Shown piece after piece: positions 6,396-49,377 of a stretch of DNA of 49,377 nucleotides. The notes under the pieces were generated by a model. The model ran no database searches. It saw only the letters and a list, made by a program, of their open reading frames with translations, and was not told where the DNA came from. Where the stretch lies: NCBI GenBank assembly GCA_015057615.1, contig SVEA01000038.1, positions 1 to 49,377 on the forward strand, in the 5' to 3' direction. Source of the stretch: Lachnospiraceae bacterium. GTDB lineage: Bacteria; Bacillota; Clostridia; Lachnospirales; Lachnospiraceae. How positions within the stretch are numbered: the stretch's first letter is position 1; each line of letters opens with the position of its first letter. Both the position numbers and the translations under genes were made by a program.

Positions 6396-6419
6396 CAAAT
6401 TAAAAAAAGGAGAATCAGT

Positions 6420-8165
6420 ATGAAAAAAAAGTTGCTTAGTATCTTAATGATTGTGATGATCGTAGCTTCGATGCTTTCCGGCTGCGGTAAAGAAAAGGAT
6501 TCAAAGGATGCTTCACAGCCGATCGCTTCCAAGGGAGGAACGGATTCGGAAAGTACGGCAGAGGAGGGCGGACCGAAAAAGTTCGATGATGTTAAACTCA
6601 AGATGCTGGTTTGCTGGAACGGGGGATTCAAAACAGCATCCGATCAATACAACAATGAAGTGGCAAAAGCAATCCGGGAGAAAACAGGTGTCACGGTAGA
6701 ATTTGAAGGCATCATGATGAGTGAGACAGAAAAACTGAATCTGATGTTTGCTTCCGGTGATATGCCAGATATGATCAATGCGCCTTATTGGGGCGGTAGC
6801 AGCGGTGAGACAGCGGTAATTAAAAAAGCCGGAATAGAAGGCAGGCTGCTTCCGATTGAAGATTTACTGCCAAATTACCCCAATCTGGCAAATGCGTATG
6901 ATATCGGGGTCGTTTCCCAGTCTTACCTGGAAAATGATTTGGATTACAAGGAATTTGGCGGTCATAGATATATTCTGCCCCAGGAAACGCCGGGAGATAC
7001 CGCCGATGTGACAAACTGGGCCTATGGTGTTTTTGTCCGCGGCGATGTGCCGGAAGCCTTAGGAATTGATCCTGCCTCGATTAAGACGGCAGATGATTTG
7101 TATGATTTTATGGTGAAGGCGAAGGAGTATGGATTTAAAGATGTCAACGGCAATAATTGTATCGTTGCAACAACCTACCACAACGGCTGGGACAGTTCGG
7201 GATATTCCATTAATCTTTCCAGCAAGAAATTCAGCAATTATAGGAAGCAGGAAGATGGAACCTATAATTACCTACCCTTAACAGAGGGTTGGACCAAAAG
7301 GAATCTTTTTATCTGGAAACTTGTGAATCAGGGATTGCTGGATGTGGAGTGCTTTAAGCAATCGGATTCCCAGGCCGATGAAAAGGTCGGAAACGGAACG
7401 GCATTGTTCGCATCGGCCCAATATAGCAGCGTAATTAATTCCACAAAGCTGACCGGTCTGTACAGCGCCCATCCGGAAATGCGCTATGTTCCTGTAGGAC
7501 CGATGACCTATAAAGACGGGAAACCGGTGGTACAGCTTGAGCAAAACGGGCGTGGAGGCTCCCCTGCAATCATATTCCCGACCACCTGCTCCAACATTGA
7601 GGCGGCTATGACGTATCTTGACTATGTCAACAGTGAAGAGGGAGCCCGCTTATGCCAATATGGTATCGAAGGAGATACCTATACCATGAATTCGGATGGA
7701 CAGCCGCGCCTTAACAGCGACCTGCTGGCAAGAAAGGCAGTAGGGGATTCTTCTGTGGATGATGAGCTCCGTGAAAAAGGCATTAGTTATATATTAGGCC
7801 GTACGCTGCAGGCGGATAAACGCTTCACCTGGTGGGGTGAAATCAATGCGGGTGATGCGGATGCGGCACCGCCGGAAATGGTGGAATATAAAAAGGCACG
7901 TCCGGTAGAACGTGTAGACGGATATCCACTGGAAGGGCTTGTAATCAATTATGAGAATTACGATAAGGTAAAGAAATTCGCATTCGAAGGCACTACCCAG
8001 ACCGATTATGAGCAGCGTGCTTATTTTGCAGAATCAGAGGAAGAGGCACGTTCGATCCTGGAAGATTTTCAAAAATATATACTAACACAGGAGAATGGTA
8101 TCTTTAAGGATTATCTGAACTATGTAACGGAATGTGCAAATTCCAGGGATGATATTCTGGATTAA
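6420..8165 (+). CDS. Extracellular solute-binding lipoprotein, LplA type
   Basis: This is the binding component of the CUT1 importer, anchored outside the membrane. The signal peptide KKKLLSILMIVMIVASMLSGC has a lipobox with Cys22, followed by an acidic/Ser linker and a large SBP_bac_1-like fold (LKMLVCWNGG, MFASGDMPDMI, SNIEAAMTYLDYVNSEEGARL). The 581 residues match the long LplA subgroup. The ATG at 6420 is preceded by AAAGGAG. The longer reading frame starting upstream lacks a ribosome site and would bury the signal peptide. The ligand is unknown, but the adjacent putative glycosidase suggests an oligosaccharide. Confidence 0.93.
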   Translation: MKKKLLSILMIVMIVASMLSGCGKEKDSKDASQPIASKGGTDSESTAEEGGPKKFDDVKLKMLVCWNGGFKTASDQYNNEVAKAIREKTGVTVEFEGIMMSETEKLNLMFASGDMPDMINAPYWGGSSGETAVIKKAGIEGRLLPIEDLLPNYPNLANAYDIGVVSQSYLENDLDYKEFGGHRYILPQETPGDTADVTNWAYGVFVRGDVPEALGIDPASIKTADDLYDFMVKAKEYGFKDVNGNNCIVATTYHNGWDSSGYSINLSSKKFSNYRKQEDGTYNYLPLTEGWTKRNLFIWKLVNQGLLDVECFKQSDSQADEKVGNGTALFASAQYSSVINSTKLTGLYSAHPEMRYVPVGPMTYKDGKPVVQLEQNGRGGSPAIIFPTTCSNIEAAMTYLDYVNSEEGARLCQYGIEGDTYTMNSDGQPRLNSDLLARKAVGDSSVDDELREKGISYILGRTLQADKRFTWWGEINAGDADAAPPEMVEYKKARPVERVDGYPLEGLVINYENYDKVKKFAFEGTTQTDYEQRAYFAESEEEARSILEDFQKYILTQENGIFKDYLNYVTECANSRDDILD

Positions 8166-8208
8166 GAAATCTAGTAGCATAGGACGCAATTTCCTACGAT
8201 AATATATA

Positions 8209-8239
8209 GGGTTGCTGCAGATATGGGCTGCAGCAACCC
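8209..8239 (+). terminator. Hairpin after the solute-binding protein gene
   Basis: A perfect 12-bp stem, GGGTTGCTGCAG and CTGCAGCAACCC, has a 7-base loop. There is no strong T-run, so it may act as a 3' stabiliser or attenuator between the transporter genes and the next gene. A stray R1-type right terminus (GCTTTTGACACTCATAT) follows at 8261-8277. Confidence 0.6.
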
Positions 8240-8347
8240 CTTATGTGCTTTGTTTAGAAGGCTTTTGACACTCATATCTTTAAATCCATAATGCGCATAA
8301 AAACACACAGGAAGTAAGATAAAGACAGAAAGGATTGGAAGAAACAT

Positions 8348-10663
8348 ATGGCATATATCAGGGAACGTTCCCAGGAGCTGACGGGATATCAGGAAAGTGC
8401 AACCTGGCAGCCGAATATAGATATTCAATGTGATTTTGTCATGGTATACGGCATCGATGCCACCATGCCGGAAAGGGTACAGAAATTCAGGGAGAAAGGA
8501 TATGTGGTCCACCTGATGACGGGGATTTCCTGGGGAGAGTATCAAGATTACCTGTATGGAAAGTATGACGGAAGAAACCATTGGGACGAAAGTCAGATGG
8601 ACCGTTACGGCAAGCATATTAAGCATGGAAAAGAGGTTCCTTATATGTCTCCGACCATCGCCTTTGCAGAGTATCTGACGCAAAAGCTTAAGGCTGCCGT
8701 GGATGCGGGAGTAGAGGCAATCCATATGGAGGAACCGGAATTCTGGGATCGGGGAGGGTATTCGGAGGCTTTTCAGAGAGAATACCTGCTGTATTACCGA
8801 GAACCCTGGAAGGCTCCCCATAGCAGTCTGGATGCGAGATATAAGGCTTCTAAGTTAAAGGCATACCTTTATGCGAGAACCTTAGGCTATATCGGAAATG
8901 CATTGAAGGAATATGCCCTGACGAAGTATGGCAGAGTTCTCAGATTCTATGTTCCTACCCATAGCCTGCTCAATTACACCCAGTGGAAGATCATCAGCCC
9001 GGAGGGCGCTCTGATCGGTATCCCTGCGGTAGATGGATATATCGCCCAGGTCTGGACCGGTACCAGCCGTCCGGCAAATGTCTATGCGGGCGTGGTAAAG
9101 GAGAGAACCTTTGAAACCGCATTTTTAGAATATGGTATTATGCAGGAGCTGGTGAAGGGTACGGGAAGAAGAATGTGGTTCCTTCATGATCCCATCGAGG
9201 ACAATCCGGAATATACCTGGGACGATTACCGCTATAATTATTTAAAGACGGCAATCGCTTCCCTGCTACATCCGGCTGTCTGCAATTATGAAATCTGCCC
9301 GTGGCCGAGAAGAGTATTTGATGGGGTATTTCCGCGCAAGGCAGGACTTGCCGGTGGAACGGTACCGACCTGGAATATGCAGGGAGCAAAGGCCATTCCT
9401 CCGGAATATGCTACTCTGCTTAATAGTATGGTGCAGCTGTTCGGTGATATGGACCAGGCAGAGTATTCCTTTGAGGGGATAGAGGAAGGGGTCGGCATCC
9501 TGATGTCGGATTCCGGACTGTTTCAGAGAAGCTATCCCGATGGAATCATCACGGAAGAAAAGGCTGCGGCTCTGGAGCATGCGATGGAGGCTTTGAAGGA
9601 CCGGATGCATGACGGAGAAGATTGCTCTGTAGAAAGTCAAACGCTTATGGAAAAGGTGAAGGAGGACAAGGACCTTTATCAGAGCTTTACCCAGAGCAGC
9701 ACCTTCCCCAATTTCTTTGGTATGGCAATGCCCTTATTAAAATATGGGCTTCCAGTACGGCCGGTGCTACTGGATAATATCCGAAGATATCCAGGATATT
9801 TTGATGATTACATGACACTAATTTTAAGCTATGAGTATATTAAGCCGGAATCCCCGGATGTCAACAATGCGCTTGCGGCATGGGTGAAAAGCGGCGGTTC
9901 CCTTGTGTATATCGGAGACGGCAGCGATCCCTATCACCAGGTTGCGGGTTGGTGGAACCGATCCTCTTTATCTGCGGGTGGAAAAGGAGGCTATCCGAAT
10001 CCTTCGGAGCATTTATTTGAGATGCTGGGGCTTTCCGTGACACCGAAGGACGGCTTATATGAAGTTGGGAAGGGTCGTGTCATGGTCTGGAACCTGTCGC
10101 CGGCAAGGCTCTGCCTGACATCGGAGCTGGCAGGAGAATACCGTTCCCGATTAAAGGAGGTGCTGGCGCTTAGAGGCAGCGAATGGAGGTATACGAACCA
10201 GTTGACGCTGCGCAGAGGTCCCTATATTATTTCGGCGGTGATGGACGAAGGTGGAGAAGATATGCCGAGAGAAGCGCATGTTTTCAAAGGACTTTATGCG
10301 GATATGCTTGCGGGTGATTATGCGATCATAAAGGAAAAGAGCTTAACCAAAGATGAGAACACCATCCTATTTGACTTTTCAAAAATCGAAGAGGAGGACT
10401 GGAGAGTAATCGGCTGCTCCGCCCGGGTATTTTCCCTAGATCCGACAGAGGAGGGCACCGGCTTTACTATGAGGGTAAAAGCAGCGGATCGGCTGAAAGC
10501 CTTTCTGAGAATCCGACTTCCCAAACCAGTGGCGTCATTGGAGGCGGAGGATGAAAAGGGCAGAAAAGTTCCGGTAAAGTATACCTGGGATGAGGATACG
10601 CGGACGGAATTATTCTGCTACGATAGCTCCAATCAGGAAGTGTCAATCCGAGGGGTCTTCTAA
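8348..10663 (+). CDS. Putative glycoside hydrolase-like protein, family not recognised
   Basis: The 771 residues have no signal peptide, so the protein is cytoplasmic. I cannot assign a family. The N-terminal ~370 residues read like a TIM-barrel glycosidase, with alternating beta/alpha segments and a conserved-looking acidic cluster IHMEEPEFWDRGG (Glu128, Glu129, Glu131). Residues ~450-600 resemble the glutamine-amidotransferase-like domain found after the barrel in GH42-type enzymes (MTLILSYEYIKPES, then AWVKSGGSLVYIGDG). The last ~150 residues look beta-rich. The ATG at 8348 follows AAAGGATTGGAAG. Its place directly after the importer genes suggests it processes the imported sugar. Enzymatic function is inference only. 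Confidence 0.6.
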   Translation: MAYIRERSQELTGYQESATWQPNIDIQCDFVMVYGIDATMPERVQKFREKGYVVHLMTGISWGEYQDYLYGKYDGRNHWDESQMDRYGKHIKHGKEVPYMSPTIAFAEYLTQKLKAAVDAGVEAIHMEEPEFWDRGGYSEAFQREYLLYYREPWKAPHSSLDARYKASKLKAYLYARTLGYIGNALKEYALTKYGRVLRFYVPTHSLLNYTQWKIISPEGALIGIPAVDGYIAQVWTGTSRPANVYAGVVKERTFETAFLEYGIMQELVKGTGRRMWFLHDPIEDNPEYTWDDYRYNYLKTAIASLLHPAVCNYEICPWPRRVFDGVFPRKAGLAGGTVPTWNMQGAKAIPPEYATLLNSMVQLFGDMDQAEYSFEGIEEGVGILMSDSGLFQRSYPDGIITEEKAAALEHAMEALKDRMHDGEDCSVESQTLMEKVKEDKDLYQSFTQSSTFPNFFGMAMPLLKYGLPVRPVLLDNIRRYPGYFDDYMTLILSYEYIKPESPDVNNALAAWVKSGGSLVYIGDGSDPYHQVAGWWNRSSLSAGGKGGYPNPSEHLFEMLGLSVTPKDGLYEVGKGRVMVWNLSPARLCLTSELAGEYRSRLKEVLALRGSEWRYTNQLTLRRGPYIISAVMDEGGEDMPREAHVFKGLYADMLAGDYAIIKEKSLTKDENTILFDFSKIEEEDWRVIGCSARVFSLDPTEEGTGFTMRVKAADRLKAFLRIRLPKPVASLEAEDEKGRKVPVKYTWDEDTRTELFCYDSSNQEVSIRGVF

Positions 10664-23026: not shown

Positions 23027-23319
23027 AGAGTGACAAAAGCTGATTTATAAACTTAACGTCGTCAATTTGCACAATTTATGTGTTGACAAGTAATATGAAA
23101 CAAATTTCATTCGTAACACATTGTTCTCAAAGCATTGCATAAAATGCAATACTTAGGTTGAAGTATGTAGTGGTACATAAGATCATAAAACACATGATCG
23201 AAGTACCAACGACTTCAAACAGTTGCGCAGTAAAATATTGTTTCCTATTACTTAAGCTTTACCTTGCTTTGTGCAAATTGCCGAAGACGATTTGTTAGGA
23301 GGGCTTTTGACTCTCAAAT
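23027..23319 (+). repeat. R1 nested-palindrome repeat, copy 3 (full length)
   Basis: The most complete copy. It opens GAGTGACAAAAGC and closes GCTTTTGACTCTC. Then AATTTGCACAA pairs with TTGTGCAAATT, AAGTAATATGAAAC pairs with GTTTCCTATTACTT, and inner hairpins AAGCATTGCAT/ATGCAATACTT and GATCAT/ATGATC follow. With R3 it fills most of the 830 bp between PFOR and the next gene. Confidence 0.85.
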
Positions 23320-36330: not shown

Positions 36331-36897
36331 ATGGAAAAGGAATTTTGGAGGCCCGGTAATATGCTGTATCCGCTTCCCGTTGTTATGGTCAGCTGTGCAG
36401 ATGAGAAACATAAACCGAATATCATTACATTAGCCTGGGCAGGAACGGTCTGTACCAATCCTCCGATGGTATCTGTATCAATTAAGAAAGAACGTTATTC
36501 CTATGATATTATTAAGAATAGCGGAGAATTTGTAATAAATCTGGTAACAGAGGATTTAATCAAGTTTGCAGATTACTGCGGAGTCAAATCCGGAATGAAG
36601 ACAGATAAATTTAAGGATACTGGCTTAACACCCGGGAAAGGAAATGTAGTATCCGCTCCGCTTATTTGTGAAAGCCCGGTAAATATTGAATGCAAATTAA
36701 AAAAGATTATCCCTCTGGGAAGTCATGATATGTTTCTTGCAGAGGTGGTCAGTGTTGCCGTAGATAAAAAATATATGGATGAGGCCGGTAAATTCAATCT
36801 AAACCAATCAAGACTTGCTATATACTCTCACGGAGAATACTACGGCCTCGGACAACTCATCGGACGTTTCGGATATTCCGTTCGTAAGAAGAAGTAA
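36331..36897 (+). CDS. Flavin reductase-like / flavoredoxin FMN-binding protein
   Basis: A cytoplasmic FMN-binding split-barrel protein of 188 residues. The family blocks are PLPVVMVSCADEKHKPNIITLAWAGTVCTNPPMVSVSIKKERYSYDIIKNSGEFVINL and FAEVVSVAVDKKYMDE. It ends YYGLGQLIGRFGYSVRKKK, common in the clostridial flavoredoxin-like group. It may carry FMN for electron transfer or reduce flavins. It has its own promoter and terminator. No electron partner lies next to it. The ATG at 36331 follows GGAAGAGGAAAG. Confidence 0.92.
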   Translation: MEKEFWRPGNMLYPLPVVMVSCADEKHKPNIITLAWAGTVCTNPPMVSVSIKKERYSYDIIKNSGEFVINLVTEDLIKFADYCGVKSGMKTDKFKDTGLTPGKGNVVSAPLICESPVNIECKLKKIIPLGSHDMFLAEVVSVAVDKKYMDEAGKFNLNQSRLAIYSHGEYYGLGQLIGRFGYSVRKKK

Positions 36898-39543: not shown

Positions 39544-40371
39544 ATGAGTGAATGTGATAACAACTGCAACAGTTGCAGTAAGAATTGCGGTGACAGAAAA
39601 GAAGTTAAGAATGACTTTTCTGTAAAGCCCCATGAAATGAGTAAGATTAAAAAGGTTATCGGTGTCGTCAGCGGCAAGGGCGGTGTGGGGAAATCCTTGG
39701 TCACTTCTTTACTCGCCGTTACAATGAATAGAAGAGGGTATCATAGTGCTGTTTTGGATGCGGATATTACTGGTCCTTCCATCCCCAAAGCATTTGGAAT
39801 TAAAGAGAAAGCAGTTGGGACAGAAGCCGGTATTCTTCCGGTGAAAAGTAAAACCGGGATCGACATTATGTCAATCAATCTGCTTTTAAAGAATGAAACG
39901 GATCCGGTTGTATGGAGAGGACCGATTATTGCCGGAACGGTGAAGCAGTTCTGGTCGGATGTCATCTGGAGTGATGTAGACTATATGTTTGTGGATATGC
40001 CTCCGGGAACTGGAGATGTACCTCTTACCGTATTCCAGTCCCTTCCGGTGGACGGTATTATTATTGTAACTTCTCCGCAGGAACTGGTGTCCATGATTGT
40101 TGGCAAGGCGGTAAAAATGGCTAAGATGATGAATATACCGATATTAGGATTGGTAGAGAATATGTCGTATTATAAATGTCCGGATTGCGGCAAGGAGCAT
40201 TCTGTCTTTGGTGAAAGCCACATCAAAGAAGTCGCAGAGCAGAACGATATTCCGGTTTATTCAAAATTACCGATCGATCCGAAGCTTTCTGCTGCCTGTG
40301 ATAAAGGAATGGTTGAATTGTTCGAGGGAGATTGGATTGACGCAATAGCAGATGCAATTAGGAAGCTTTAA
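39544..40371 (+). CDS. mrp: Mrp/NBP35-type ATPase, Fe-S cluster carrier
   Basis: A cytoplasmic P-loop ATPase that binds and delivers Fe-S clusters. 275 residues. The N-terminal Cys motif (Cys4, Cys8, Cys11, Cys15) is as in Nbp35-type members. The deviant Walker A GKGGVGKS is at 44-51, the DADITGPSIP and DMPPGTGD motifs follow, and the bridging CxxC is at Cys212 and Cys215 (KCPDCG). The start ATG 39544 is fixed because the upstream ATG 39533 is out of frame. The next features are the Rnf-type Fe-S protein genes, which would need such a carrier, but proximity alone does not prove the link. Confidence 0.95.
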   Translation: MSECDNNCNSCSKNCGDRKEVKNDFSVKPHEMSKIKKVIGVVSGKGGVGKSLVTSLLAVTMNRRGYHSAVLDADITGPSIPKAFGIKEKAVGTEAGILPVKSKTGIDIMSINLLLKNETDPVVWRGPIIAGTVKQFWSDVIWSDVDYMFVDMPPGTGDVPLTVFQSLPVDGIIIVTSPQELVSMIVGKAVKMAKMMNIPILGLVENMSYYKCPDCGKEHSVFGESHIKEVAEQNDIPVYSKLPIDPKLSAACDKGMVELFEGDWIDAIADAIRKL

Positions 40372-40506
40372 TTACAGGTAAGCGGACGGAACGAAGCAGT
40401 CCAAGAGTTACTTACGATAGAAGAAAAAGAGATCTATATAATAGATGACCTATGTAGAGAAAGAAATAATAAGAGGGGAGTGGTTATTGCAAACCAATGC
40501 GAATGC

Positions 40507-40669
40507 TGCAAGAGGGGCTGTGGTCTTCCTGTAATGCACTGTTTGAAAGACAGGTTGTTCATTTTGTACGATTATGGCATACAAAACGAATGAGATGTCT
40601 TTCAATCTGTGTGTGAATAGTCTCGCAAAAAATCTGCGAGACATTGGAAGATTACAGCCCCTCTTGTAT
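40507..40669 (-). repeat. R3 palindromic repeat, copy 2
   Basis: Inverted copy of 22676-22821. Ends GCAAGAGGGGCTGT and ACAGCCCCTCTTGTA; hairpins GAAAGACA/TGTCTTTC and GTCTCGCA/TGCGAGAC. It has an extra TTTTGTA/TACAAAA hairpin absent from copy 1. It lies between the convergent ends of mrp and apbE. Confidence 0.8.
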
Positions 40670-40709
40670 AGATGCAGGTAGAAATGCAACGACCCATGCC
40701 AGCCGCTTC

Positions 40710-41804
40710 CTATTCAATAACCTGGATGGCATCATGAAAACCTTTGGTATAGTGCAGCTGATAATCATCGGTGATAAATATCGCATACGTATCCGCAATG
40801 CTCTCGATCAGCTTCATCCCTTTTTCCAGTCCGAGTGCAAAGGCGGTGGTACTTAGCCCGTCCCCATCGACGGAATAGGGTGAGATTATGGATACGGAGA
40901 TAAGATCCGTATCATAAGGGTAGCCGGTCTTTGGATTAAGGATATGGTGGTAGCGAATCCCGTCAAGCTCAAAGAACCGTTCATAAATTCCAGAGGATAC
41001 TACGGATAAATCGGTGATCTGCATAACAGCGATCGTTTCATTCCGGTCGGCATAGGGCATTTGAATTCCCACGTTAAACGGAGTGCCATCCGGCTTCGTG
41101 CCTACGCAGAGGACGTTGCCGCCGAGATTTATCATAGCACTTTTCACGTCATTCTCTGTCAGATAATCTTTCACACGGTCCGCAATGTAGCCTTTCGCAA
41201 TAGCGCCTAAATCAATCCCCATACCTTCTTTAGTAAACGTGATGGTATTGTCTCCCAGCTCGATATTTTTATAATTGACATAGGGGAGCGCTTCTTTGAT
41301 GGCTTCCTCCGAAGGGCGGACCGGGTCGCTTGGTTTGAAATTCCATAGGGAAGAAACCGGAGCAATGGAGATATCAAAGGCTCCCTCCGACAGATCACTA
41401 TAATATAAGCTGTAGGATAAGATATCGGTGAGCTCCTCCGATACCCGAAATGCCTGCCCGTTCTTTGGCAGAGTTCCGTGATTTAATTGATAGACCTCTG
41501 CATCCTTATCCGTGCGGCTGAAAATTTGTTCGTACTTTTTTATGACATCAAAGCAGCCTTCCAGGATATCCTTGTCCTGTTTATCGTAGATTTGAATCGT
41601 GACTACCGTATCAAGAAGAAAGGAGGATTTGCTGATAAATGGCTCTTTCTCCGAATTTTCTTCCACTTTTGAATTAAATTTACTGCATCCGGTCAATAAT
41701 ACAATAAGAAGGATGCTCGTCAGGATGCCGATACGGCAGGAAGCCTTCTTGAATTGATTTTTAAAAAGATTGCATGTATGATAATGAGTTTTGTTGTTAC
41801 ACAT
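40710..41804 (-). CDS. apbE: FAD:protein FMN transferase (ApbE), lipoprotein
   Basis: The enzyme transfers FMN from FAD onto Thr of S/TGAT-type motifs in exported proteins such as RnfG and RnfD. 364 residues, an N-terminal signal with lipobox LTGC (Cys40), then the ApbE domain: LDTVVTIQIYDK, SEGAFDISIAPVSSLW, DLGAIAKGYIADRV, INLGGNVLCVG and SVVSSGIYERFFELDGIRYHHILNPKTGYP. Those match catalytic ApbEs. It is divergent from the rnfC operon across a 270-bp region with a promoter for each side. It most likely flavinylates the RnfD- and RnfG-like proteins of that operon. Confidence 0.95.
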   Translation of the reverse strand: MCNNKTHYHTCNLFKNQFKKASCRIGILTSILLIVLLTGCSKFNSKVEENSEKEPFISKSSFLLDTVVTIQIYDKQDKDILEGCFDVIKKYEQIFSRTDKDAEVYQLNHGTLPKNGQAFRVSEELTDILSYSLYYSDLSEGAFDISIAPVSSLWNFKPSDPVRPSEEAIKEALPYVNYKNIELGDNTITFTKEGMGIDLGAIAKGYIADRVKDYLTENDVKSAMINLGGNVLCVGTKPDGTPFNVGIQMPYADRNETIAVMQITDLSVVSSGIYERFFELDGIRYHHILNPKTGYPYDTDLISVSIISPYSVDGDGLSTTAFALGLEKGMKLIESIADTYAIFITDDYQLHYTKGFHDAIQVIE

Positions 41805-41871
41805 GGAATTTATCCCTTTCCTTTTCTAGTCTTAGTGTTCCTTGAATTCTGTCGTTAAATACAACGTTCTT

Positions 41872-41900
41872 ATTGTAATTAACATAAGGTGGAGTGTCAA
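41872..41900 (-). promoter_or_regulatory. Sigma-A promoter for apbE
   Basis: On the minus strand TTGACA (+ strand TGTCAA at 41895-41900) and TACAAT (+ strand ATTGTA at 41872-41877) have a 17-bp spacer. Confidence 0.7.
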
Positions 41901-41962
41901 GAAAAACTAAAAAAGAAATGCGGTTTTAATGGAGTTATTTGTTTTTTGATGACGAGCTGCAC

Positions 41963-41991
41963 TTGACATTTGATACGGTTCGTATTATGAT
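41963..41991 (+). promoter_or_regulatory. Sigma-A promoter for the Rnf-type operon
   Basis: TTGACA (41963-41968) and TATGAT (41986-41991) have a 17-bp spacer, about 85 bp before rnfC. It is divergent from the apbE promoter, with the two -35 boxes about 60 bp apart, allowing shared control. Confidence 0.75.
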
Positions 41992-42074
41992 TTTGACGTA
42001 CATTTAGCGATAATTTATTGGGTATGCTAATTCATGTCAAACTCTTAACAATATACCGAAAGGATTGAAGTCGT

Positions 42075-43457
42075 ATGAAGTATTCTTCCGGAAATAATTT
42101 TCATGGCGGGATCCATTGCAGTGACGGAACGGACAAGGAGCTAAGCAGTAAAGAGCCGATCCTTTTCTATAATCCAAGAACGGTAGAGATTTCCATGAGG
42201 CAATCCGCCGGCAGCAACTGTCAGGCAGTAGTGAATATCGGCGATCGGGTCGTAAAGGGACAGCTGATAGGAACTCCTGCTCGTTTTGGTGCGGCAAATA
42301 TTCATGCAAGTATCAGCGGTAAAGTACAGGATATTGTAACAGCGAAGGATCCGCAGGATAACGATACGACCTATGTGGTGATTGAAGCGGATACGCCGGA
42401 AAATGGAATGGAAATAGAACGAATACAAAATACGGACGACTATCACAAAGGGTTCGCAGATATTTCATCCTTTTCCAGGGAAGAGATTATAGCCTCGATG
42501 AAAGAGGGAGGACTTATCGGTATGGGTGGTGCGGGCTTTCCGACCCATATTAAGTATGAGACGACCAATAAAATTGACTGTGTACTTATCAATGCTGCAG
42601 AATGTGAACCTTATCTTACCTGTGACCATAGACTGATGCTGGAATACGGCTATGATATTCTAAATGGAATTCGTCTGTTTATAAAAGCATCCGGTGCCGA
42701 AAAGGCGATCCTGTGTCTGGAAGATAATAAAAGGGATGCAGCCAAACATTTAAACAGCTTATTATTTCAAAGCGAATTGCCGATAGAAGTTAAGCTTCTT
42801 CGGACCAGGTATCCCCAGGGAGGGGAACGGCAGCTGATTGAGGCTGTGACTGGGCAGGAAGTACCGACGGGAAAGCTCCCGGCGGATGTTGGGGTCATTG
42901 TGAATAATGTAGGTACAGCGAAGGCTCTGGCGGATGTAATGTTTACGCAGACTCCCCTGATATCCAGATGCATTACGGTTACCGGAAAGGTGAGGAAGCC
43001 ATTAAATTTTTTTGTTCCCATCGGTACCAGATTCACAGAGCTGATCGAGCTTGCCGGTGGTTTTACGGCAGTGTACAGCCGGGTGATTGTCGGCGGACCG
43101 ATGACCGGTACTGGTATTTTATTCGGCGGGGGAGTAAGCGATTTGGAGGGAAGTGTTACGAAGACGTCCTCCGGACTGCTTGTTTTAGAAGACCAGGCAA
43201 TTACCGAAACACCCTGTATCCGCTGCGGGCAGTGTGAGAGAATATGTCCTGCCGGATTAGCTCCATTTAAAATTGATTTTGCCTGTATCAATGAGGATTA
43301 TACCTTATGTGAAAAGTTATATGCAACGGAATGTATCAGCTGCGGCAGTTGCTCCTATGTTTGTCCTGCGAAGAGAGAATTGGCTCATCGTACAACCAGA
43401 GCGAAGATTGAAGTTCTGAAGCTTCGAATGGAGAGGAGGAAGAAACAAAATGGGTAA
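42075..43457 (+). CDS. rnfC: RnfC-type electron transport subunit
   Basis: The peripheral cytoplasmic subunit that takes electrons from NADH in Rnf complexes. 460 residues. N-terminal barrel-sandwich domain (about 20-110), the FMN/NADH-binding motif GMGGAGFPTHIKYE at about 148-161, INAAECEPYLTCDHRLM, a SLBB-like domain, then two [4Fe-4S] motifs (CIRCGQCERICP from Cys381 and CISCGSCSYVCP from Cys420). The order of domains is that of canonical RnfC. The ATG at 42075 follows GAAAGGA. The stop overlaps the rnfD start by 8 bp. Confidence 0.94.
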   Translation: MKYSSGNNFHGGIHCSDGTDKELSSKEPILFYNPRTVEISMRQSAGSNCQAVVNIGDRVVKGQLIGTPARFGAANIHASISGKVQDIVTAKDPQDNDTTYVVIEADTPENGMEIERIQNTDDYHKGFADISSFSREEIIASMKEGGLIGMGGAGFPTHIKYETTNKIDCVLINAAECEPYLTCDHRLMLEYGYDILNGIRLFIKASGAEKAILCLEDNKRDAAKHLNSLLFQSELPIEVKLLRTRYPQGGERQLIEAVTGQEVPTGKLPADVGVIVNNVGTAKALADVMFTQTPLISRCITVTGKVRKPLNFFVPIGTRFTELIELAGGFTAVYSRVIVGGPMTGTGILFGGGVSDLEGSVTKTSSGLLVLEDQAITETPCIRCGQCERICPAGLAPFKIDFACINEDYTLCEKLYATECISCGSCSYVCPAKRELAHRTTRAKIEVLKLRMERRKKQNG

Positions 43458-44424
43458 GAAAGCAGCTGAGCTTATGCATGGCATTCGACCGCATATACGG
43501 GCGGTGAGAACGACAAAGGCGATTATGTCCGATGTTGTAATTGCTCTTATTCCGGCACTGATCGGTTCCATCTATTATTTTGGGATCGGATCCTTGATCC
43601 TTACACTGACCTCCGTGACCACCTGTGTTTTATCCGAATATATCTGGCAGAGGCTGCGAAAGGAACCAATTCGGGTCGGAGATTTCAGTGCGGTAGTTAC
43701 GGGTATTTTACTTGCCTTTAACTTTCCGGTTACAACGCCGCTCTGGATCGTATGGATAGCGAGTGTATTTTCTATTATTGTAGTAAAGCAGATCTTTGGT
43801 GGAATCGGTAATAACTTTGCTAACCCTGCACTTATGGGCAGAGCTATAGTGATGCTTCTATGGCCGGGCAGCATTGCACAGTATGTTAGTGCAAACAATG
43901 CCGGTACGGATGCAGTCAGCTCCGCGACCGTTTTAAGTATGTTAAAAAGTGGTCAGGAGAATATAGGCTATTCCCATCTGGATATGTTTCTTGGTAATAT
44001 TCCGGGTGCCTTGGGAGAAACGAGCAAATTACTACTTCTCATCGGCTTTTTCTACCTTTGTTACCGCCAGGTAGTTCATTTTTGGGCTGCAATAACCTAT
44101 ATCGTAACGGTTGTGGCGATTACCTTCGTATTCGGAGGAAATGGATGGTTTACCGGAGATGTTTTAACCAATTTGCTGGGCGGCGGGCTGATCCTTGGTG
44201 CCTGCTATATGATTACAGATTATCCGTCGGTTGCACCCAGAGTAAAAGTTATGATTGCGATTCTTGCCGGTATCGTTACGGCTTCAATTCGAATCTGGGG
44301 AACCCTTCCGGAGGGAGTCTGTTTTGGTATCTTAACAGGAAACTGCCTGTCTGGTTTGGTGGAATGGATGATTCAGCCCCATATCTATGGCGTAGACCGA
44401 AAGAAGAGTAATAATAATTTATGA
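43450..44424 (+). CDS. rnfD: RnfD-type membrane flavoprotein
   Basis: A membrane subunit of Rnf/Nqr-type complexes with covalent FMN and a non-covalent flavin. 324 residues with about nine TM helices. Conserved blocks are RPHIRAVRTTKAIMSDVVIALIPALIGS, FGGIGNNFANPALMGRA and GACYMITDYPSVA. The flavinylation motif is DAVSSAT with Thr160; the usual Gly is Ser, a mild deviation. It starts inside the end of rnfC, so translation is coupled. Confidence 0.93.
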   Translation: MGKKAAELMHGIRPHIRAVRTTKAIMSDVVIALIPALIGSIYYFGIGSLILTLTSVTTCVLSEYIWQRLRKEPIRVGDFSAVVTGILLAFNFPVTTPLWIVWIASVFSIIVVKQIFGGIGNNFANPALMGRAIVMLLWPGSIAQYVSANNAGTDAVSSATVLSMLKSGQENIGYSHLDMFLGNIPGALGETSKLLLLIGFFYLCYRQVVHFWAAITYIVTVVAITFVFGGNGWFTGDVLTNLLGGGLILGACYMITDYPSVAPRVKVMIAILAGIVTASIRIWGTLPEGVCFGILTGNCLSGLVEWMIQPHIYGVDRKKSNNNL

Positions 44425-44444
44425 AATAAAGAGAGGGATATGTA

Positions 44445-45449
44445 ATGAAAGACAACAGATTAAAAGGTATTATTGCACTTGCAGTGGTTACTGTATTATC
44501 TTTTGGTGCAGTTTATGGAAGTAAAGCTTTAACAAAAGATAAGGGTGCTTCCAATGAAAAAACAAATACAACTCCGGAGGAATCGGTGGAAGGCAGTATT
44601 GATGTTAGCGGTCAGGAAGGAATTGATGCGGCAAGAGAACTTACCGATGCAAGCGGTACGGTAACAGGCTATGCAGTTACTTCCGGAGCAAAAGGCTTTG
44701 CTGGTAAGGTTACGCTTGAGGTCACTTTTGGTACCGATGCTCAGACAATTGAAGGCGTAAAGGTAGTAAGCCATACAGAAACTCCGGGATATGGCGCAAA
44801 TCTGGAAAATGAGGACTACCTGGCACAGTTTAACGGCATCCCCGCTCCGGTTTATCTTCCGGGAAATGCTCCTGTAGCAGCCGAACAAAAGGAAGCTGCA
44901 AAAGAACCGGCAGAAGAAACTGCGAAAGAGCCGGCTTCGACAGAATTAAAAGACGGCGTTTATTCGGTTAAGGCAGATACTGCGGAGCAGGGTTATCTTT
45001 CCACACTGACCTTGAAGGTTGAAGATGGTGCGGTTACTTCCGTTGTATGGGATGCTTCAAATGAGCTTGGAGAGTACAAGAGCTACTTATCTACCGTGGG
45101 TGAGTACAAGATGACCGACGATGGCCCTACCTGGAAAGAGCAGGCGGACGCACTTGCAGCATACGTTGTTGAGAAACAGTCTGCCGAAGGATTTGCCGTG
45201 GATGAAAACGGAAAAACCGACACGGTTGCAGGCGTAAGCATCAGTGTGGATGGTTTTATTGATTTAACAGAAAAGGCATTAAAGCTTGCAGCAAGCGGTG
45301 AAGGTGCAGAAGCTGCAGAAGAGCCGGCAGAAACGGCTTCCGCAGGAACAGAGATTGATGCAGTTTCCGGTGCTACCTTTACCTCCAACGCAATTGTAGA
45401 ATCAATTAATAAAGCGTATGAATTCATTCATGCATATGCTGCAAAATAA
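44445..45449 (+). CDS. rnfG: RnfG-type flavoprotein with an inserted extra domain
   Basis: The extracytoplasmic FMN-carrying subunit. 334 residues, against about 190-220 in usual RnfG. N-terminal TM anchor (about 7-25), the first half of the FMN_bind domain (about 60-143: GYAVTSGAKGFAGKVTLEVTFG, HTETPGYGANLENEDYLAQF), an insert (about 144-302) bounded by Ala/Glu/Pro-rich linkers, then the flavinylation motif DAVSGAT with Thr311. The insert (about 168-281: LKDGVYSVKADTAEQGYLSTLTLKVEDGAVTSVVWDASNELGEYKSYL) looks like the FMN_bind-like repeat of PplA-type lipoproteins, but its own motif reads VAGVSIS instead of SGAT. Linkers suggest it is a flexible, possibly redox, module. Confidence 0.85.
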   Translation: MKDNRLKGIIALAVVTVLSFGAVYGSKALTKDKGASNEKTNTTPEESVEGSIDVSGQEGIDAARELTDASGTVTGYAVTSGAKGFAGKVTLEVTFGTDAQTIEGVKVVSHTETPGYGANLENEDYLAQFNGIPAPVYLPGNAPVAAEQKEAAKEPAEETAKEPASTELKDGVYSVKADTAEQGYLSTLTLKVEDGAVTSVVWDASNELGEYKSYLSTVGEYKMTDDGPTWKEQADALAAYVVEKQSAEGFAVDENGKTDTVAGVSISVDGFIDLTEKALKLAASGEGAEAAEEPAETASAGTEIDAVSGATFTSNAIVESINKAYEFIHAYAAK

Positions 45450-45502
45450 TCAGCTATAATAACCTTAATGGGAATTGACTTGGATGGAATAGGAGGATGA
45501 CG

Positions 45503-46270
45503 ATGAAGACAAAGTATCCGATGGAGGCATTTGCCCTCGCCATGGTAGTATTTTCTTTTAATATGCGGGAAGCTTTCCTTACCGGAATTCTCTTGCTGCT
45601 TATTACCGTCTTTGGACTGGTGATCGATCAGGTGGTCGGCAGGCAGTTGCCTTCCTGGAGCAGAAGGATAAGCATGACGATCCTTATCTTGGCAATCACC
45701 TATTCTTTATTCCAAGTCGTTATTGTTCGAGTTTTACAGGAAAATCCGGATTATCGGACCGTCTTTTTACAGCTTGTTGCCGGCGCTTTTATTGCCTGGC
45801 ATGTGCTTACCTGTAAGGAAGCAGATTATAACAATCTTTTATTCGAGGGTTCCTTTGCCTATGGTGCTTTGATTTTGATTGGACTGCTGCGTGAATTTTT
45901 ATCCTACGGGACGATATTTGAATACAAAATCGCTGATTATGCAGCTTTCACTCCCGGTTTTCAAAATGCCATTGTTGGCTTTATGCTGAGTGCAGCCGCT
46001 ATAGCAATAATAAATAGGGCATTCGTATATGAGGAAGCAGGGGTAGAAAGTCTGTGGGTAATTCTTCCGGCAATGATAGTTTATCAACCGTTTTCCTTGG
46101 ACTTACCAGTAAAGAGCCTGGGAATTCTTATTTCAATTGTGGTTGCGGTCCTTCTATTCCTATCAGTTCGAAAATATCTGACATTTTCGAACATAAGCAG
46201 AGAATGGAGAAGGCTCCCGATTGATTTATTGTCCGTTGGGATGATTTATCTAATACTAATGGTATTTTAA
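45503..46270 (+). CDS. RnfA/RnfE-like membrane protein, divergent
   Basis: 255 residues, six predicted TM helices. The clearest family match is around Cys104: LTCKEADYNNLLFEGSFAYGALILIGLLREFLSYGTIF corresponds to the second half of RnfA/RnfE (NC...GLG...REIL..GT.F). Canonical A and E each also have an N-terminal Cys that helps hold a [2Fe-2S] cluster between them; here Cys104 is the only Cys. The start is ATG 45503, six bases after AGGAGG; ATG 45497 overlaps the site. The operon has no second A/E gene and no RnfB. So this is either a reduced Rnf-type module or the rest is encoded elsewhere. Confidence 0.65.
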   Translation: MKTKYPMEAFALAMVVFSFNMREAFLTGILLLLITVFGLVIDQVVGRQLPSWSRRISMTILILAITYSLFQVVIVRVLQENPDYRTVFLQLVAGAFIAWHVLTCKEADYNNLLFEGSFAYGALILIGLLREFLSYGTIFEYKIADYAAFTPGFQNAIVGFMLSAAAIAIINRAFVYEEAGVESLWVILPAMIVYQPFSLDLPVKSLGILISIVVAVLLFLSVRKYLTFSNISREWRRLPIDLLSVGMIYLILMVF

Positions 46271-46280
46271 AGTAGAAAAA

Positions 46281-46520
46281 ATTAATTTGCACAATTTATG
46301 CATTGATAAGTAATATGAAACCTGTTTTATTCGCAACACGTTGTTCCCAAAAGCATTGCAAAAAACGCAATACTTGGATTGAAGTACGTAATGGTACGTA
46401 AGACACAAAATACGTGATCTAAGTACCAATGACTTCAAACAGTTGCGCATTAAAATATTGTCTCCTATTACTTAAGTTTTTCTTTAATTTGTGCAAATTG
46501 AAGAAGATGATTTGTTAGTA
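46281..46520 (+). repeat. R1 nested-palindrome repeat, copy 4
   Basis: AATTTGCACAA/TTGTGCAAATT, AAGTAATATGAAAC/CTCCTATTACTT-type outer stem, AGCATTGC/GCAATACTT hairpin and a weakened inner hairpin (GACACA/GTGATC). It lies between the RnfA/E-like gene and the EetA-like gene. Confidence 0.8.
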
Positions 46521-46580
46521 AGAGCAAGTGGAATTGTGCAATGCAAGGACACTTGCTCTTTGAAATAAAAGGTGAAGAAT

Positions 46581-46949
46581 ATGTTAAAGAAAAATGACTT
46601 GATTTTAATTATAGGAATTGTAGTATTAGGCGTGGGGGCGCTTCTTGCGATTCATTTCTCGAAGGAGAGCGGAAGCAAGGTTCGTGTTACCTTAAAACAG
46701 GAAGAATTGAAAACATTTAAATTGGAGGAAGATACCATATATACGGTAGAAGGTGAGAATGGAGCCTGGAATACCTTTGAAATTAAGGACGGGTACGTGA
46801 ATATGATCGATGCCAGCTGCCCGGACAAGCTCTGTGTTGCACAAAAAGGAATTCATTATGATCATGAGACAATTGTTTGTCTTCCCAACCAGGTTGTATT
46901 AGAAATTATTGGCGGAGAAGAGAATGAAGTTGATTCCGTTGCAAATTAA
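46581..46949 (+). CDS. NusG domain II-containing protein, EetA-like
   Basis: 122 residues. TM anchor at about 7-25 (LILIIGIVVLGVGALLAIHF), then a small extracytoplasmic NusG_II-type beta domain with DGYVNMIDASCPDKLCVAQKG (Cys80, Cys85, the family's CPDxxC). As I recall, EetA of the Listeria and Enterococcus extracellular electron-transfer loci belongs to this family. I chose ATG 46581 (AAAAGGTGAAGAAT before it); GTG 46572 overlaps the AAGG site. R1 copies lie on both sides. Role in electron transfer is inferred from family and context. Confidence 0.75.
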   Translation: MLKKNDLILIIGIVVLGVGALLAIHFSKESGSKVRVTLKQEELKTFKLEEDTIYTVEGENGAWNTFEIKDGYVNMIDASCPDKLCVAQKGIHYDHETIVCLPNQVVLEIIGGEENEVDSVAN

Positions 46950-46955
46950 GTATGA

Positions 46956-47219
46956 TTTAATGTGAAAAGCCGATTTATAAAACCCGCTTCGTCAATTGCA
47001 CAATTTATGTGTTGATAAGTAATAGGAACCATATTTCATTCGCAACACACTTCTGCTTAATTGTAGTATGTAATGGTACATAAGACCACAAAATACGTGA
47101 TTTAAGTACCAACGACTCAAACAGTTGCTCACTAAAATATTGTTTCCTATTATTTAAGTTTTTTCCTAATTTTGTGCAAATTGAAGAAGCCGATTTGTTA
47201 GGAAAGCTTTTGACATTCG
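46956..47219 (+). repeat. R1 nested-palindrome repeat, copy 5
   Basis: From TTTAATGTGAAAAGC to GCTTTTGACATTCGA. AAGTAATAGGAACC/GTTTCCTATTATTT stem; the AAGTATTGC-type hairpin is lost; the inner hairpin GACCAC/GTGATT is partly degraded. It lies between the EetA-like and EetB-like genes. Confidence 0.8.
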
Positions 47220-47240
47220 AATTAAGTATAAGGAGTTAGG

Positions 47241-47729
47241 ATGAAATCGAAAAAAACGGCGTTGTATGGGCTGCTTGTAGCCCTTGCCTTTATATTAAGC
47301 TACATAGAGACATTAATACCATTTCCGCTTATGCCGGGAATTAAGCTTGGACTTGCGAATCTTGTTGTGATCACGGCATTGTATGGAATGGGATGGAAGG
47401 AAGCGTTTGTATTATCTTTGATCCGGATCCTCTTAGTTGGCTTCACCTTCGGCAACCTCTCAACGATGCTGTACAGCCTGGCGGGCGGATTACTCAGCTG
47501 GCTTATGATGGTATTGGCGAAAAAGATTAAATGGTTCAGTATGGTCGGTGTCAGCATTATCGGCGGAATTTCCCATAATATCGGACAAATTATCGTTGCA
47601 ATTCTTACGGTAAGCAATGTCTATCTTATTACTTATCTGCCGTTATTACTGATTACTGGGGTAATTACCGGTGCTTTGATCGGCTTTCTAGGTGCTCTTA
47701 TTGTAAAACGAATCAAGCGGTTATTTTAG
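47241..47729 (+). CDS. Gx transporter family protein, EetB-like
   Basis: 162 residues, five to six TM helices. Family blocks KTALYGLLVALAFILSYIETLIPFPLMPGIKLGLANLVVI, FVLSLIRILLVGFTFGNLSTMLYSLAGGLLSWLMM and GGISHNIGQIIVA. Often labelled heptaprenyl diphosphate synthase component I, though the fold is ECF-S-like. EetB of Gram-positive extracellular electron transfer belongs to this family, as I recall. A homologue in quinone-related transport is the alternative. The ATG at 47241 follows AAGGAG at a short six-base spacing. It closes the flavin electron-transfer locus. Confidence 0.85.
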   Translation: MKSKKTALYGLLVALAFILSYIETLIPFPLMPGIKLGLANLVVITALYGMGWKEAFVLSLIRILLVGFTFGNLSTMLYSLAGGLLSWLMMVLAKKIKWFSMVGVSIIGGISHNIGQIIVAILTVSNVYLITYLPLLLITGVITGALIGFLGALIVKRIKRLF

Positions 47730-47771
47730 TTTAATATTTCCTATAATAAGCAATTTGTCCGCTTTTATTTA

Positions 47772-47799
47772 TTGAAAAATTTACTAAAAGTGTTATAAT
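47772..47799 (+). promoter_or_regulatory. Sigma-A promoter for the BMP lipoprotein
   Basis: TTGAAA (47772-47777) and TATAAT (47794-47799) with a 16-bp spacer, about 45 bp before the start. It separates this gene from the electron-transfer locus. Confidence 0.75.
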
Positions 47800-47843
47800 T
47801 AAGTATGCAGTTATTACTGTAAAAAATTATGGGAGGAATTTAC

Positions 47844-48977
47844 ATGAAAAAGATTTTAGCTTTAATGCTGGTACTTTCTATGTCACTTGTGCTCTTAACC
47901 GGCTGCGGCAATAGCGATGGTGAGATTGCGCTTATTACCGATAAGGGCAACATTGATGACAAGTCTTTCAACCAAGGTTCTTGGGAGGGCGTTAAAAAAT
48001 TTGCTGAAGGAAACAAGATCACGCATAAATACTATAAGCCAGAGGAATATAACGATGCAGGTTATCTTGCAACGATCGATCTGGCAGTTGAGGGCGGTGC
48101 AAAGGTTGTTGTAACACCGGGTTTCCTTTTTGAAGTTCCGGTTTATGAGGCACAGACAAAGTATCCGGAAGTGAAATTTATCCTTCTTGACGGAGCTCCT
48201 CATAATGCAGATTATTCCGATAATACCATAAAGGAAAATGTAGCAAGCGTTCTCTATAATGAGGAGCAATCCGGTTATCTTGCTGGATATGCAGCAGTGA
48301 AGGACGGCTACAGAAAGCTTGGTTTTATGGGCGGTATGGCAGTTCCTGCGGTTCAGGCATTCGGCTATGGCTACCTGCAGGGAGCAGAGGTTGCTGCCAA
48401 GGAACTCGGCTTAAACGACGGAGAAATCTCTGTCTTATATCATTACACGGGTGACTTTGCCGAAACGGATACGAATAAAGCTACTGCGAAGGCGATGTAC
48501 CAAGAAGGAGTAGAAATTATCTTTGGCTGCGGTGGTTCGGTAGGTAAGTCCGTTATGGCTGCGGCTGCAGAAGCCGGTGCAAAGGTTATCGGTGTTGACG
48601 TTGACCAGAGATATGACAGTGATACGGTTGTTACATCCGCTACGAAGGGCTTGGGAGCTTCCGTTTATCAGGTTCTGGAAGCAATCTACAAGAATGACAG
48701 CTGGGCTACCTTTGGTGGAAAGCAAACCTACTTTAATGCTGCAAATGCTGGTGTCGGCCTTCCGACCGAAGTAATCGGGGATAAAAAAGCAGACGCATTT
48801 GATCGTTTCAATCAATTTAAGAAAGCAGATTATGAAGCGGTATTTGCAACGCTTGAGAATGGCACAGCAGTTCCGGTTCGGGAAATTACGATCGAAGACC
48901 CGGATGGATATGCAACAGCAGAAGAATTGGTTACCGGTCTTAACCTGGTTAAGGTAACGGTTGAAACAAGACAGTAA
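47844..48977 (+). CDS. BMP-family (PnrA-type) nucleoside-binding lipoprotein
   Basis: A substrate-binding lipoprotein for nucleosides of the BMP/Med family. 377 residues. Signal peptide KKILALMLVLSMSLVLLTGC with lipobox Cys, then IALITDKGNIDDKSFNQGSWEGVKKFAE, KFILLDGAPHN, EEQSGYLAGYAAVKDGYRKLGFMGGMAVPAVQAFGYGYLQGA and IIFGCGGSVGKSVMAAAAEAGAKVIGVDVDQ. ATG 47844 has GGGAGG six bases before it; the frame reaching 47829 lacks one. Transporter ATPase and permease genes do not appear before the window ends. Expression is likely monocistronic, with its own promoter and terminator. Confidence 0.95.
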   Translation: MKKILALMLVLSMSLVLLTGCGNSDGEIALITDKGNIDDKSFNQGSWEGVKKFAEGNKITHKYYKPEEYNDAGYLATIDLAVEGGAKVVVTPGFLFEVPVYEAQTKYPEVKFILLDGAPHNADYSDNTIKENVASVLYNEEQSGYLAGYAAVKDGYRKLGFMGGMAVPAVQAFGYGYLQGAEVAAKELGLNDGEISVLYHYTGDFAETDTNKATAKAMYQEGVEIIFGCGGSVGKSVMAAAAEAGAKVIGVDVDQRYDSDTVVTSATKGLGASVYQVLEAIYKNDSWATFGGKQTYFNAANAGVGLPTEVIGDKKADAFDRFNQFKKADYEAVFATLENGTAVPVREITIEDPDGYATAEELVTGLNLVKVTVETRQ

Positions 48978-49033
48978 TGATATTGTATTACAAAACATAC
49001 TGGCCTGAGCCTTATGTAGAGTAAGAGGATGTA

Positions 49034-49067
49034 AGGGGGGAAAGGCGTTACCTTTCCCCTCTATTTT
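49034..49067 (+). terminator. Terminator after the BMP lipoprotein
   Basis: AGGGGGGAAAGG and CCTTTCCCCTCT form a 12-bp stem with one wobble and the 5-base loop CGTTA, followed by ATTTTTAG. Confidence 0.85.
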
Positions 49068-49092
49068 TAGGATTGGAAGCAGAAATCTAATT

Positions 49093-49377
49093 TAAGTGTC
49101 AAAAGCCAATTTATAAAACTAACTTCATCAATTTGCGCAATTTGTGCATGGATAAGTAATATGAAACAAATTTCATTCGCAACATGTTGTTCTCAAAGTG
49201 CTGTATAAAACGCAGCGCCAAGCATTGCAAAAAACGCAATACTTGGATTGCTAATTAAAGGTACATTAGATCACAAAATACGTGATCTAAGTACCAACGA
49301 CTTCAAACAGTTGCGCATTAAAATATTGTTTCCTATTACTTAATGTTCCATTAATTTGTGTATATTGATGAAGCTGA
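49093..49377 (+). repeat. R1 nested-palindrome repeat, copy 6 (cut by window end)
   Basis: Begins TAAGTGTCAAAAGCC. It has AAGTAATATGAAAC/GTTTCCTATTACTT, inner hairpin GATCAC/GTGATC, and uniquely two tandem copies of the first hairpin: AAGTGCTGT/GCAGCGC followed by AGCATTGC/GCAATACTT. The right terminus lies outside the window. Confidence 0.8.

Follow-up and report, generated by a model that had tools for sequence, protein, structure and literature searches.

A stretch of 49,377 nt from Lachnospiraceae bacterium (contig SVEA01000038.1, assembly GCA_015057615.1; hereafter the window) carries an Rnf-type gene set that differs from the canonical rnf operon. With moderate confidence we propose that it encodes half of an Rnf complex: a membrane NADH:extracytosolic-flavin oxidoreductase, probably non-pumping and outward-directed, with a fused, cluster-free relic of the RnfA/RnfE (A/E) pair. 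In this mechanism RnfC would oxidise NADH (flavin mononucleotide (FMN), two 4Fe-4S clusters), and RnfD would move the electrons across the membrane (via covalent FMN and, judging from homologues, riboflavin). Outside, RnfG or a replacement enzyme would receive them on at least one FMN attached by ApbE, and the protein in this position would hand them to a fused reductase or an external acceptor. RnfB, the ferredoxin arm, is missing, and the A/E pair is merged into a cysteine-free membrane protein, here termed ORF5, probably kept as a scaffold or RnfG docking site. A Rex-like site would lead to induction when NADH is high.

Gene content of the variant locus

The genes of the set are listed below with their coordinates in the window, strand and supporting matches.

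40710..41804, minus strand: apbE, FAD:protein FMN transferase (FAD, flavin adenine dinucleotide), putative lipoprotein, divergent from rnfC (PF02424, 3.1e-87)
42075..43457, plus strand: rnfC, with NADH/FMN domain, SLBB and two 4Fe-4S motifs (TIGR01945, 416 bits, cut-off 246)
43450..44424, plus strand: rnfD, with flavinylation motif DAVSSATVL (Thr160) (TIGR01946, 248 bits, cut-off 207)
44445..45449, plus strand: rnfG-like gene (PF04205, 6.9e-20; rnfG model 70 bits, under its cut-off of 102)
45497..46270, plus strand: ORF5, membrane protein, putatively RnfE-like plus the C-terminal half of RnfA (profile comparisons, hydropathy)
46572..46949, plus strand: NusG domain II (NusG_II) protein, EetA-like, GTG start (PF07009, 1.3e-27)
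47241..47729, plus strand: Gx/PF07456 membrane protein, EetB-like, probable FAD-export ECF-S subunit (PF07456, 7.7e-43; function from PMC9973259)

Profile matches confirmed the gene set given in the initial annotation, namely apbE divergent from rnfC-rnfD-rnfG, a membrane gene, NusG_II and Gx. The RnfC and RnfD of the window exceeded the curated NCBIfam cut-offs; RnfG fell short of the rnfG cut-off. The FMN_bind domain of the RnfG-like protein, which carries the motifs DTVAGVS and DAVSGAT, is interrupted by an insert with similarity to PplA (35 bits, below the cut-off). No RnfB was found among the window proteins scanned, as had been annotated, and a PF02508 search of the window returned nothing.

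The assembly of this genome is 4.07 Mb in size and 99% complete. A complete canonical rnfC-D-G-E-A-B operon lies on another contig, C186 (L003, 1921-7121). Genome-wide, PF02508 matched solely the canonical A/E pair on C186, and only two RnfC exceeded the TIGR01945 cut-off. The window set is a second Rnf-type system beside the canonical operon.

ORF5 as a putative RnfE/RnfA fusion

For the ORF5 of the window, neither Pfam nor NCBIfam gave a credible match; two relatives (in G025 and G013) barely exceeded the PF02508 cut-off, with 25.4 and 24.1 bits. When a profile of 23 ORF5 proteins was compared with the PDB, it matched RnfE (7zc6_E, 1e-6, profile positions 37-177), NqrD (2.3e-5, positions 18-146) and the C-terminus of RnfA (9eri_A, 0.0022, positions 200-252); one radical-SAM protein at 0.049 was taken for chance. 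ORF5 profiles run over the genomes weakly matched RnfE-type open reading frames (~18-182) and RnfA-type ones (~190-256). With all 44 ORF5 proteins of the loci described below, hhalign paired the N-terminal part with RnfE at 1.4e-8 and the C-terminal part with RnfA at 1.9e-7, against 0.19 and 0.17 for the swapped halves. Hydropathy indicated nine hydrophobic segments in ORF5 versus six in RnfE. Because of these half-wise matches, the nine segments and the relatives above the PF02508 cut-off, ORF5 is best read as a protein joining RnfE (residues 1 to ~180) to the C-terminal half of RnfA (~185-257). The kinship to RnfE and RnfA expressed by the earlier label "RnfA/E-like" is borne out by the profiles, but the gene is not one A/E subunit.

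The RnfE and RnfA comparison sets have 56 rows each, 41 of them distinct, and every row contains the cysteines of the [2Fe-2S] cluster (two columns in each protein). ORF5 columns near the expected ligand positions held cysteine in at most 5 of the 44 proteins. Cysteine was most frequent at residue 59, directly ahead of the third segment (26/44; Ser in the window), and at residue 68 (8/44). The first half of RnfA, including its own cysteine, is absent from ORF5. In a region where the alignment has low confidence, we read "ILPAMIVYQP" of ORF5 as the possible counterpart of the "LPLITTNC" stretch of RnfA. The window set contains no RnfA and RnfE pair with the four cysteines of the intramembrane [2Fe-2S] cluster. 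The set had been described as lacking one A/E subunit; this description is better replaced by a merger of RnfE with the C-terminal half of RnfA in which the cluster cysteines are gone.

Distribution, phylogeny and selection of the variant

A total of 44 variant loci were analyzed. A first set of 18 comprised the window, 16 loci from its genus and G039, which belongs to another family, and 26 others were added; G031 (a weak match with a stop, L022/L042) and a second G018 fragment (L023/L041) were left out. ORF5 was matched in 19 of 61 relatives, G031 being the one dropped as weak and interrupted. At a threshold of at least 78 bits, it occurred in 25 of 397 evenly drawn Lachnospiraceae genomes (one stop in G1026, partial in G920). 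At order level, 8 of 392 genomes had it, one of them outside the family; at class level, the window's genome was the only carrier among 391. One named carrier of the variant set is Herbinix hemicellulosilytica T3/55T (L093; Lachnospiraceae). No description of this architecture was recognised in the open-access literature among the matches listed, supplements excluded.

The order RnfC-RnfD-FMN_bind protein-ORF5 was complete in 39 of the 44 loci, so that the C-D-G-A/E core of the initially annotated order is conserved in relatives. Contig ends truncate three of the incomplete loci (L025, L174 and L181). A canonical RnfB query gave only weak matches (17-27 bits) near the variant loci, adjacent canonical operons aside. 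ApbE lay inside the fetched stretch in 23 of 44 loci. In L187 (10177-12837), RnfC and RnfD are joined in a single reading frame of 886 aa.

Maximum-likelihood trees were built after excluding RnfC outside 400-620 aa (1/40) and RnfD outside 290-380 aa (5/43, including the fused one). A single branch with support 100/100 separated 39 variant from 21 canonical RnfC, and another with the same support separated 38 variant from 25 canonical RnfD; the RnfC tree carries a warning that one long canonical row (L206) meets the variants. This split fits a single origin of the variant within the sample, which consisted of Clostridia only. A canonical rnf operon adjoins the variant in L179, L184, L185 and L186. 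Recent tandem duplication was considered for these loci and rejected, as their adjacent canonical RnfD group with canonical RnfD.

The ratio of nonsynonymous to synonymous substitution (dN/dS) was 0.04-0.21 for ORF5 in six pairs, and 0.03-0.14 for RnfC, RnfD and RnfG. Therefore, the variant set is functional and under purifying selection, not decaying.

Apart from these loci, 654-aa RnfC-like proteins were found next to a methylene-tetrahydrofolate reductase in L212 (5639-7603; PF02219 confirmed) and L214 (4949-6913; by eye). These pairs resemble the known RnfC2-Met systems.

Cofactor sites and the predicted electron path

Both 4Fe-4S motifs were kept in all 40 variant RnfC, and GGAGFP[TA] in 39 of them. 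The flavinylation Thr of RnfD was kept in 43/43, and a lax SGAT-type pattern matched 42 of 43 proteins in the RnfG position. In canonical Rnf, electrons pass from ferredoxin through RnfB, the A/E cluster, RnfG, RnfD and RnfC to NAD+ (PMC12174285). Judged by this published path, and because RnfB is missing, what remains is the half formed by RnfG, RnfD, RnfC and NADH. The steps initially proposed, from NADH through RnfC and flavinylated RnfD/RnfG to an outside acceptor, fit this evidence and form the preferred explanation, with outward flow as the probable direction.

Na+ transport has been tied to reduction of the A/E cluster, with RnfD carrying electrons only and its variants fully competent (Kumar 2025, PMC11889175). 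Since transport is coupled to a cluster whose cysteines are lost from ORF5, the variant would not be expected to pump by the Rnf mechanism.

Proteins in the RnfG position and possible acceptors

The RnfG position is occupied by different proteins. L182 and L183 have proteins of 615 and 611 aa, respectively, with an RnfG-like N-terminal anchor (by eye) followed by FMN_bind and FAD_binding_2 domains; the nearest PDB entry to the L182 protein was flavocytochrome c3 fumarate reductase, then urocanate reductase. In this position L184 has three FMN_bind domains and L185 two; L177, L179 and L181 each have one that is small.

The L182/L183 proteins share their FMN_bind and FAD_binding_2 architecture with the FMN_bind-linked fumarate/urocanate reductases (PF00890), which are usually thought to use a donor encoded elsewhere (PMC8238504). 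They differ in the RnfG-like anchor and in adjoining ORF5. Four separate proteins of the same architecture are encoded in the window genome (L046, L047, L049 and L050). Their N-termini are lipobox-like by eye, and they may be extracytosolic fumarate/urocanate-type reductases. The same genome encodes a 221-aa membrane protein with a C-terminal FMN_bind domain (L052, 1492-2157), possibly another transmembrane donor.

Fumarate-reductase-like proteins were counted at E<=1e-70 over the 397 Lachnospiraceae genomes, with at most three candidates scored per genome and some matches covering the FAD part only. They occurred in 28 genomes, 6/25 with ORF5 versus 22/372 without (Fisher p 0.005). Such reductases are one possible acceptor, not necessarily the general one.

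UbiA (PF01040) exceeded the cut-off in 0/14 ORF5 genomes, the window's included (one sub-threshold match of 21 bits), and in 14/14 control genomes. A quinone route is thus unlikely in the tested ORF5 genomes, UbiA being the only quinone gene searched.

Promoters and a Rex-like site

Three predicted regulatory sites lie between apbE and rnfC.

41872..41900, minus strand: promoter-like site for apbE, TTGACA-17-TACAAT, 11/12 (consensus match only)
41963..41991, plus strand: promoter-like site for rnfC, TTGACA-17-TATGAT, 11/12 (by eye in 9/10 inspected loci)
42034..42051, plus strand: predicted Rex-operator-like site ATGTCAAACTCTTAACAA, 12/14, between promoter and rnfC

The two promoter-like sites correspond to the sigma-A promoters of the initial annotation, which had them facing each other; they diverge. 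The promoter scan of the whole window, with 27 sites versus 20.5 +/- 4.2 in shuffles, is weak by itself. An inverted repeat in the spacer of the window rnfC promoter was found in none of the other nine loci inspected.

The clostridial Rex consensus is TTGTTAANNNNTTAACAA, and Rex leaves the DNA when NADH/NAD+ rises (PMC8457756). Upstream regions of 39 of the 40 RnfC were scanned, L172 beginning at a contig end. A site of at least 12/14 was present in 15 of the 39, in 14 of these at -25 to -69. In the window alone, eight matches against 4.7 expected were not significant, and related loci are not independent. As Rex releases DNA at rising NADH/NAD+, the predicted site suggests a role in NADH disposal with induction at high NADH.

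Comparison with known systems

The variant shares with canonical RNF (rnfCDGEAB; 7ZC6, 9ERI-9ERL) homologues of RnfC, RnfD and RnfG that carry the cofactor motifs, the C-D-G order and ApbE-dependent flavins. It differs in the missing RnfB, in the cysteine-free merger of RnfE with half of RnfA, and in the separate clade of its RnfC and RnfD. It falls outside canonical RNF because neither RnfB nor a cysteine-bearing RnfA/RnfE pair was found.

The NQR/RNF-like one-way systems (Meheust 2021, PMC8238504; preprint PMC10979944) were likewise proposed to take electrons from NAD(P)H and deliver them to an FMN_bind protein on the outside, with no second transmembrane path. As described in these sources, they have an NqrB/RnfD-NqrF (PF03116-PF00175) fusion, are mostly from Actinobacteria and the candidate phyla radiation, and have no RnfD flavinylation site. 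In contrast, the variant has a separate RnfC, the RnfD Thr in all 43 proteins and an A/E relic; PF03116 stands alone on the window RnfD, and the fusion is not present. The variant thus appears to work like these systems while failing their defining fusion and two features of canonical RNF.

Extracellular electron transfer (EET) in Listeria involves Ndh2, demethylmenaquinone, PplA, EetA, EetB, FmnA and FmnB (PMC9973259, PMC7074142, PMC8238504). Homologues of EetA (NusG_II), EetB (PF07456) and ApbE/FmnB are all present in the window set, and ApbE-type flavinylation and the PplA-like RnfG insert are further likenesses. However, the predicted electron entry of the variant is RnfC/RnfD, not Ndh2 and a quinone; Ndh2 was absent among the genes of the locus and was not searched genome-wide. 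Homologues of EetA, EetB and ApbE accompany Rnf loci generally, not Listeria-type EET alone.

Evaluation of alternative explanations

Several observations weigh against the proposed half-complex. The direction, the acceptor, the lack of pumping, the scaffold role and the Rex control are all inferred from sequence. The first RnfE cysteine sits in an alignment gap of ORF5, where its place is uncertain and its loss was judged from the neighbourhood. The RnfG-position protein of L040 has no SGAT-type site. In L186 RnfD and ORF5 have no FMN_bind gene between them; such a gene is located upstream. ORF5 and a reductase are present in L183, where RnfC and RnfD are missing, and ORF5 may therefore serve elsewhere too. 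The Rex-like site also occurs in 3 of 21 canonical upstream regions (-30 to -53), the window genome's own included, and 24 of the 39 variant regions fall short of 12/14; it is thus not peculiar to variant loci. Reductases and ORF5 are weakly associated, with p 0.16 after omitting the two genomes with in-operon fusions and one member of a pair of same-genus genomes, and 19 of the 25 ORF5 genomes had no reductase match at E<=1e-70.

The L183 locus (6311-8927, genome G1091) consists of an FMN_bind/fumarate-reductase-like protein followed by ORF5, and the contig continues without RnfC or RnfD beside them. The RnfC of G1091 above the cut-off are a canonical one (C110) and a 654-aa one beside methylene-tetrahydrofolate reductase.

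The half-complex could instead run inward, from extracellular reduced compounds or flavins through RnfG, RnfD and RnfC to NAD+. This is the direction of flow in canonical RNF (PMC12174285), and no sequence feature fixes the direction in the variant. We regard it as unlikely: the RnfG position of L182 and L183 holds reductase-like enzymes, not oxidases, and the Rex-like site suggests NADH disposal.

It is also rather unlikely that the variant proteins join the canonical complex as an alternative outer branch, sharing its RnfC/RnfD or RnfA/B. At least one canonical PF02508 (RnfA/E) gene was present in 17 of the 18 ORF5 genomes of the first set, and G1091 combines ORF5 and the reductase with no variant RnfC. 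Yet 40 of the 44 loci have their own RnfC and RnfD, with three of the other four cut by contig ends, and these proteins form separate clades. Moreover, G017 (85% complete) has ORF5 and no PF02508 match.

Ion pumping, via RnfD or via a cluster-free mechanism of ORF5, seems improbable. An earlier proposal, cited in PMC11889175, made RnfD/NqrB the pump, and ORF5 is conserved and keeps an RnfE-like fold region. Against this, the 2025 study assigned Na+ transport to the A/E cluster and found RnfD variants fully competent (PMC11889175), and ORF5 has lost the cluster cysteines.

The initial annotation assumed an onward Eet-type route, with the NusG_II and Gx proteins passing the electrons on, and both genes do lie downstream of ORF5 in 18/18 first-set loci. 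This route is now very improbable. In Listeria, flavinylation of PplA requires EetB (PF07456), an ECF-S subunit that binds FAD, and a mutant with a clean deletion of eetA was as active as the wild type and showed no EET phenotype; in 572 genomes of Clostridia, eetB lies close to Rnf genes (PMC9973259). The NusG_II-Gx cassette follows a canonical rnf operon in L195. Near the 26 other variant loci, NusG_II and/or Gx occurred in seven, and neither was seen within the fetched stretch in 19. In view of the EetB role, the cassette in L195 and its absence near the 19 loci, the Gx/EetB protein is more plausibly a supplier of FAD to ApbE than an electron route.

A degenerate duplicate of canonical rnf, the possibility raised at the outset, is rejected: the complete canonical operon does exist and ORF5 is highly diverged, but the low dN/dS of ORF5, the open frames and kept order in Lachnospiraceae and the separate clade contradict degeneration.

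Beyond the half-complex itself, a broader classification can be put forward tentatively, with its chances close to balanced. The variant may form a third Rnf-family class, in which the redox pump was dismantled to leave an NADH:extracytosolic oxidoreductase that does not pump, is controlled by Rex and belongs to Lachnospirales lacking quinones. Its once ion-pumping A/E pair would be a single cysteine-free RnfG-docking fusion, and its outer protein exchangeable for multi-flavin wires or terminal reductases.

Neighbouring genes and repeats

An Mrp/ApbC-type P-loop NTPase (PF10609) is encoded beside apbE (39544-40371), and likewise near apbE in L024, L026 and L032. A BMP/PnrA-like lipoprotein (PF02608) lies downstream of the set (47829-48977) and also in L024, L026, L029, L033, L036 and L038. 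A flavin-reductase-like protein (PF01613) is located at 36331-36897, about 4 kb upstream of apbE.

The NusG_II gene is flanked on both sides by an intergenic repeat of ~210-240 bp (46284-46521 and 46996-47204) that resembles a miniature inverted-repeat transposable element. Its blocks are 87-94% alike, and the first copy has a near-terminal inverted repeat, AATTTGCACAATTTA / TAATTTGTGCAAATT. The core word of the repeat occurs 10 times in the window versus 0.9 expected, with further places at 108-282, 463-478, 23084-23257 and 49150-49345. An Rfam search over 40000-49377 gave one sub-threshold microRNA match and nothing else.

Significance of the variant

The variant would have been overlooked by surveys that define RNF via RnfB, as PMC8238504 did, or that find A/E by Pfam. 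With RnfD intact and the A/E cluster gone, it offers a natural experiment on the debated ion mover, RnfD/NqrB versus the A/E cluster. It may also answer how NADH electrons reach outside flavin proteins and reductases in fermenting Lachnospiraceae without a UbiA-type quinone pathway. If the proposed half-complex is correct, it suggests that these bacteria have a dedicated outlet for surplus NADH electrons beside the normal ion-pumping Rnf.

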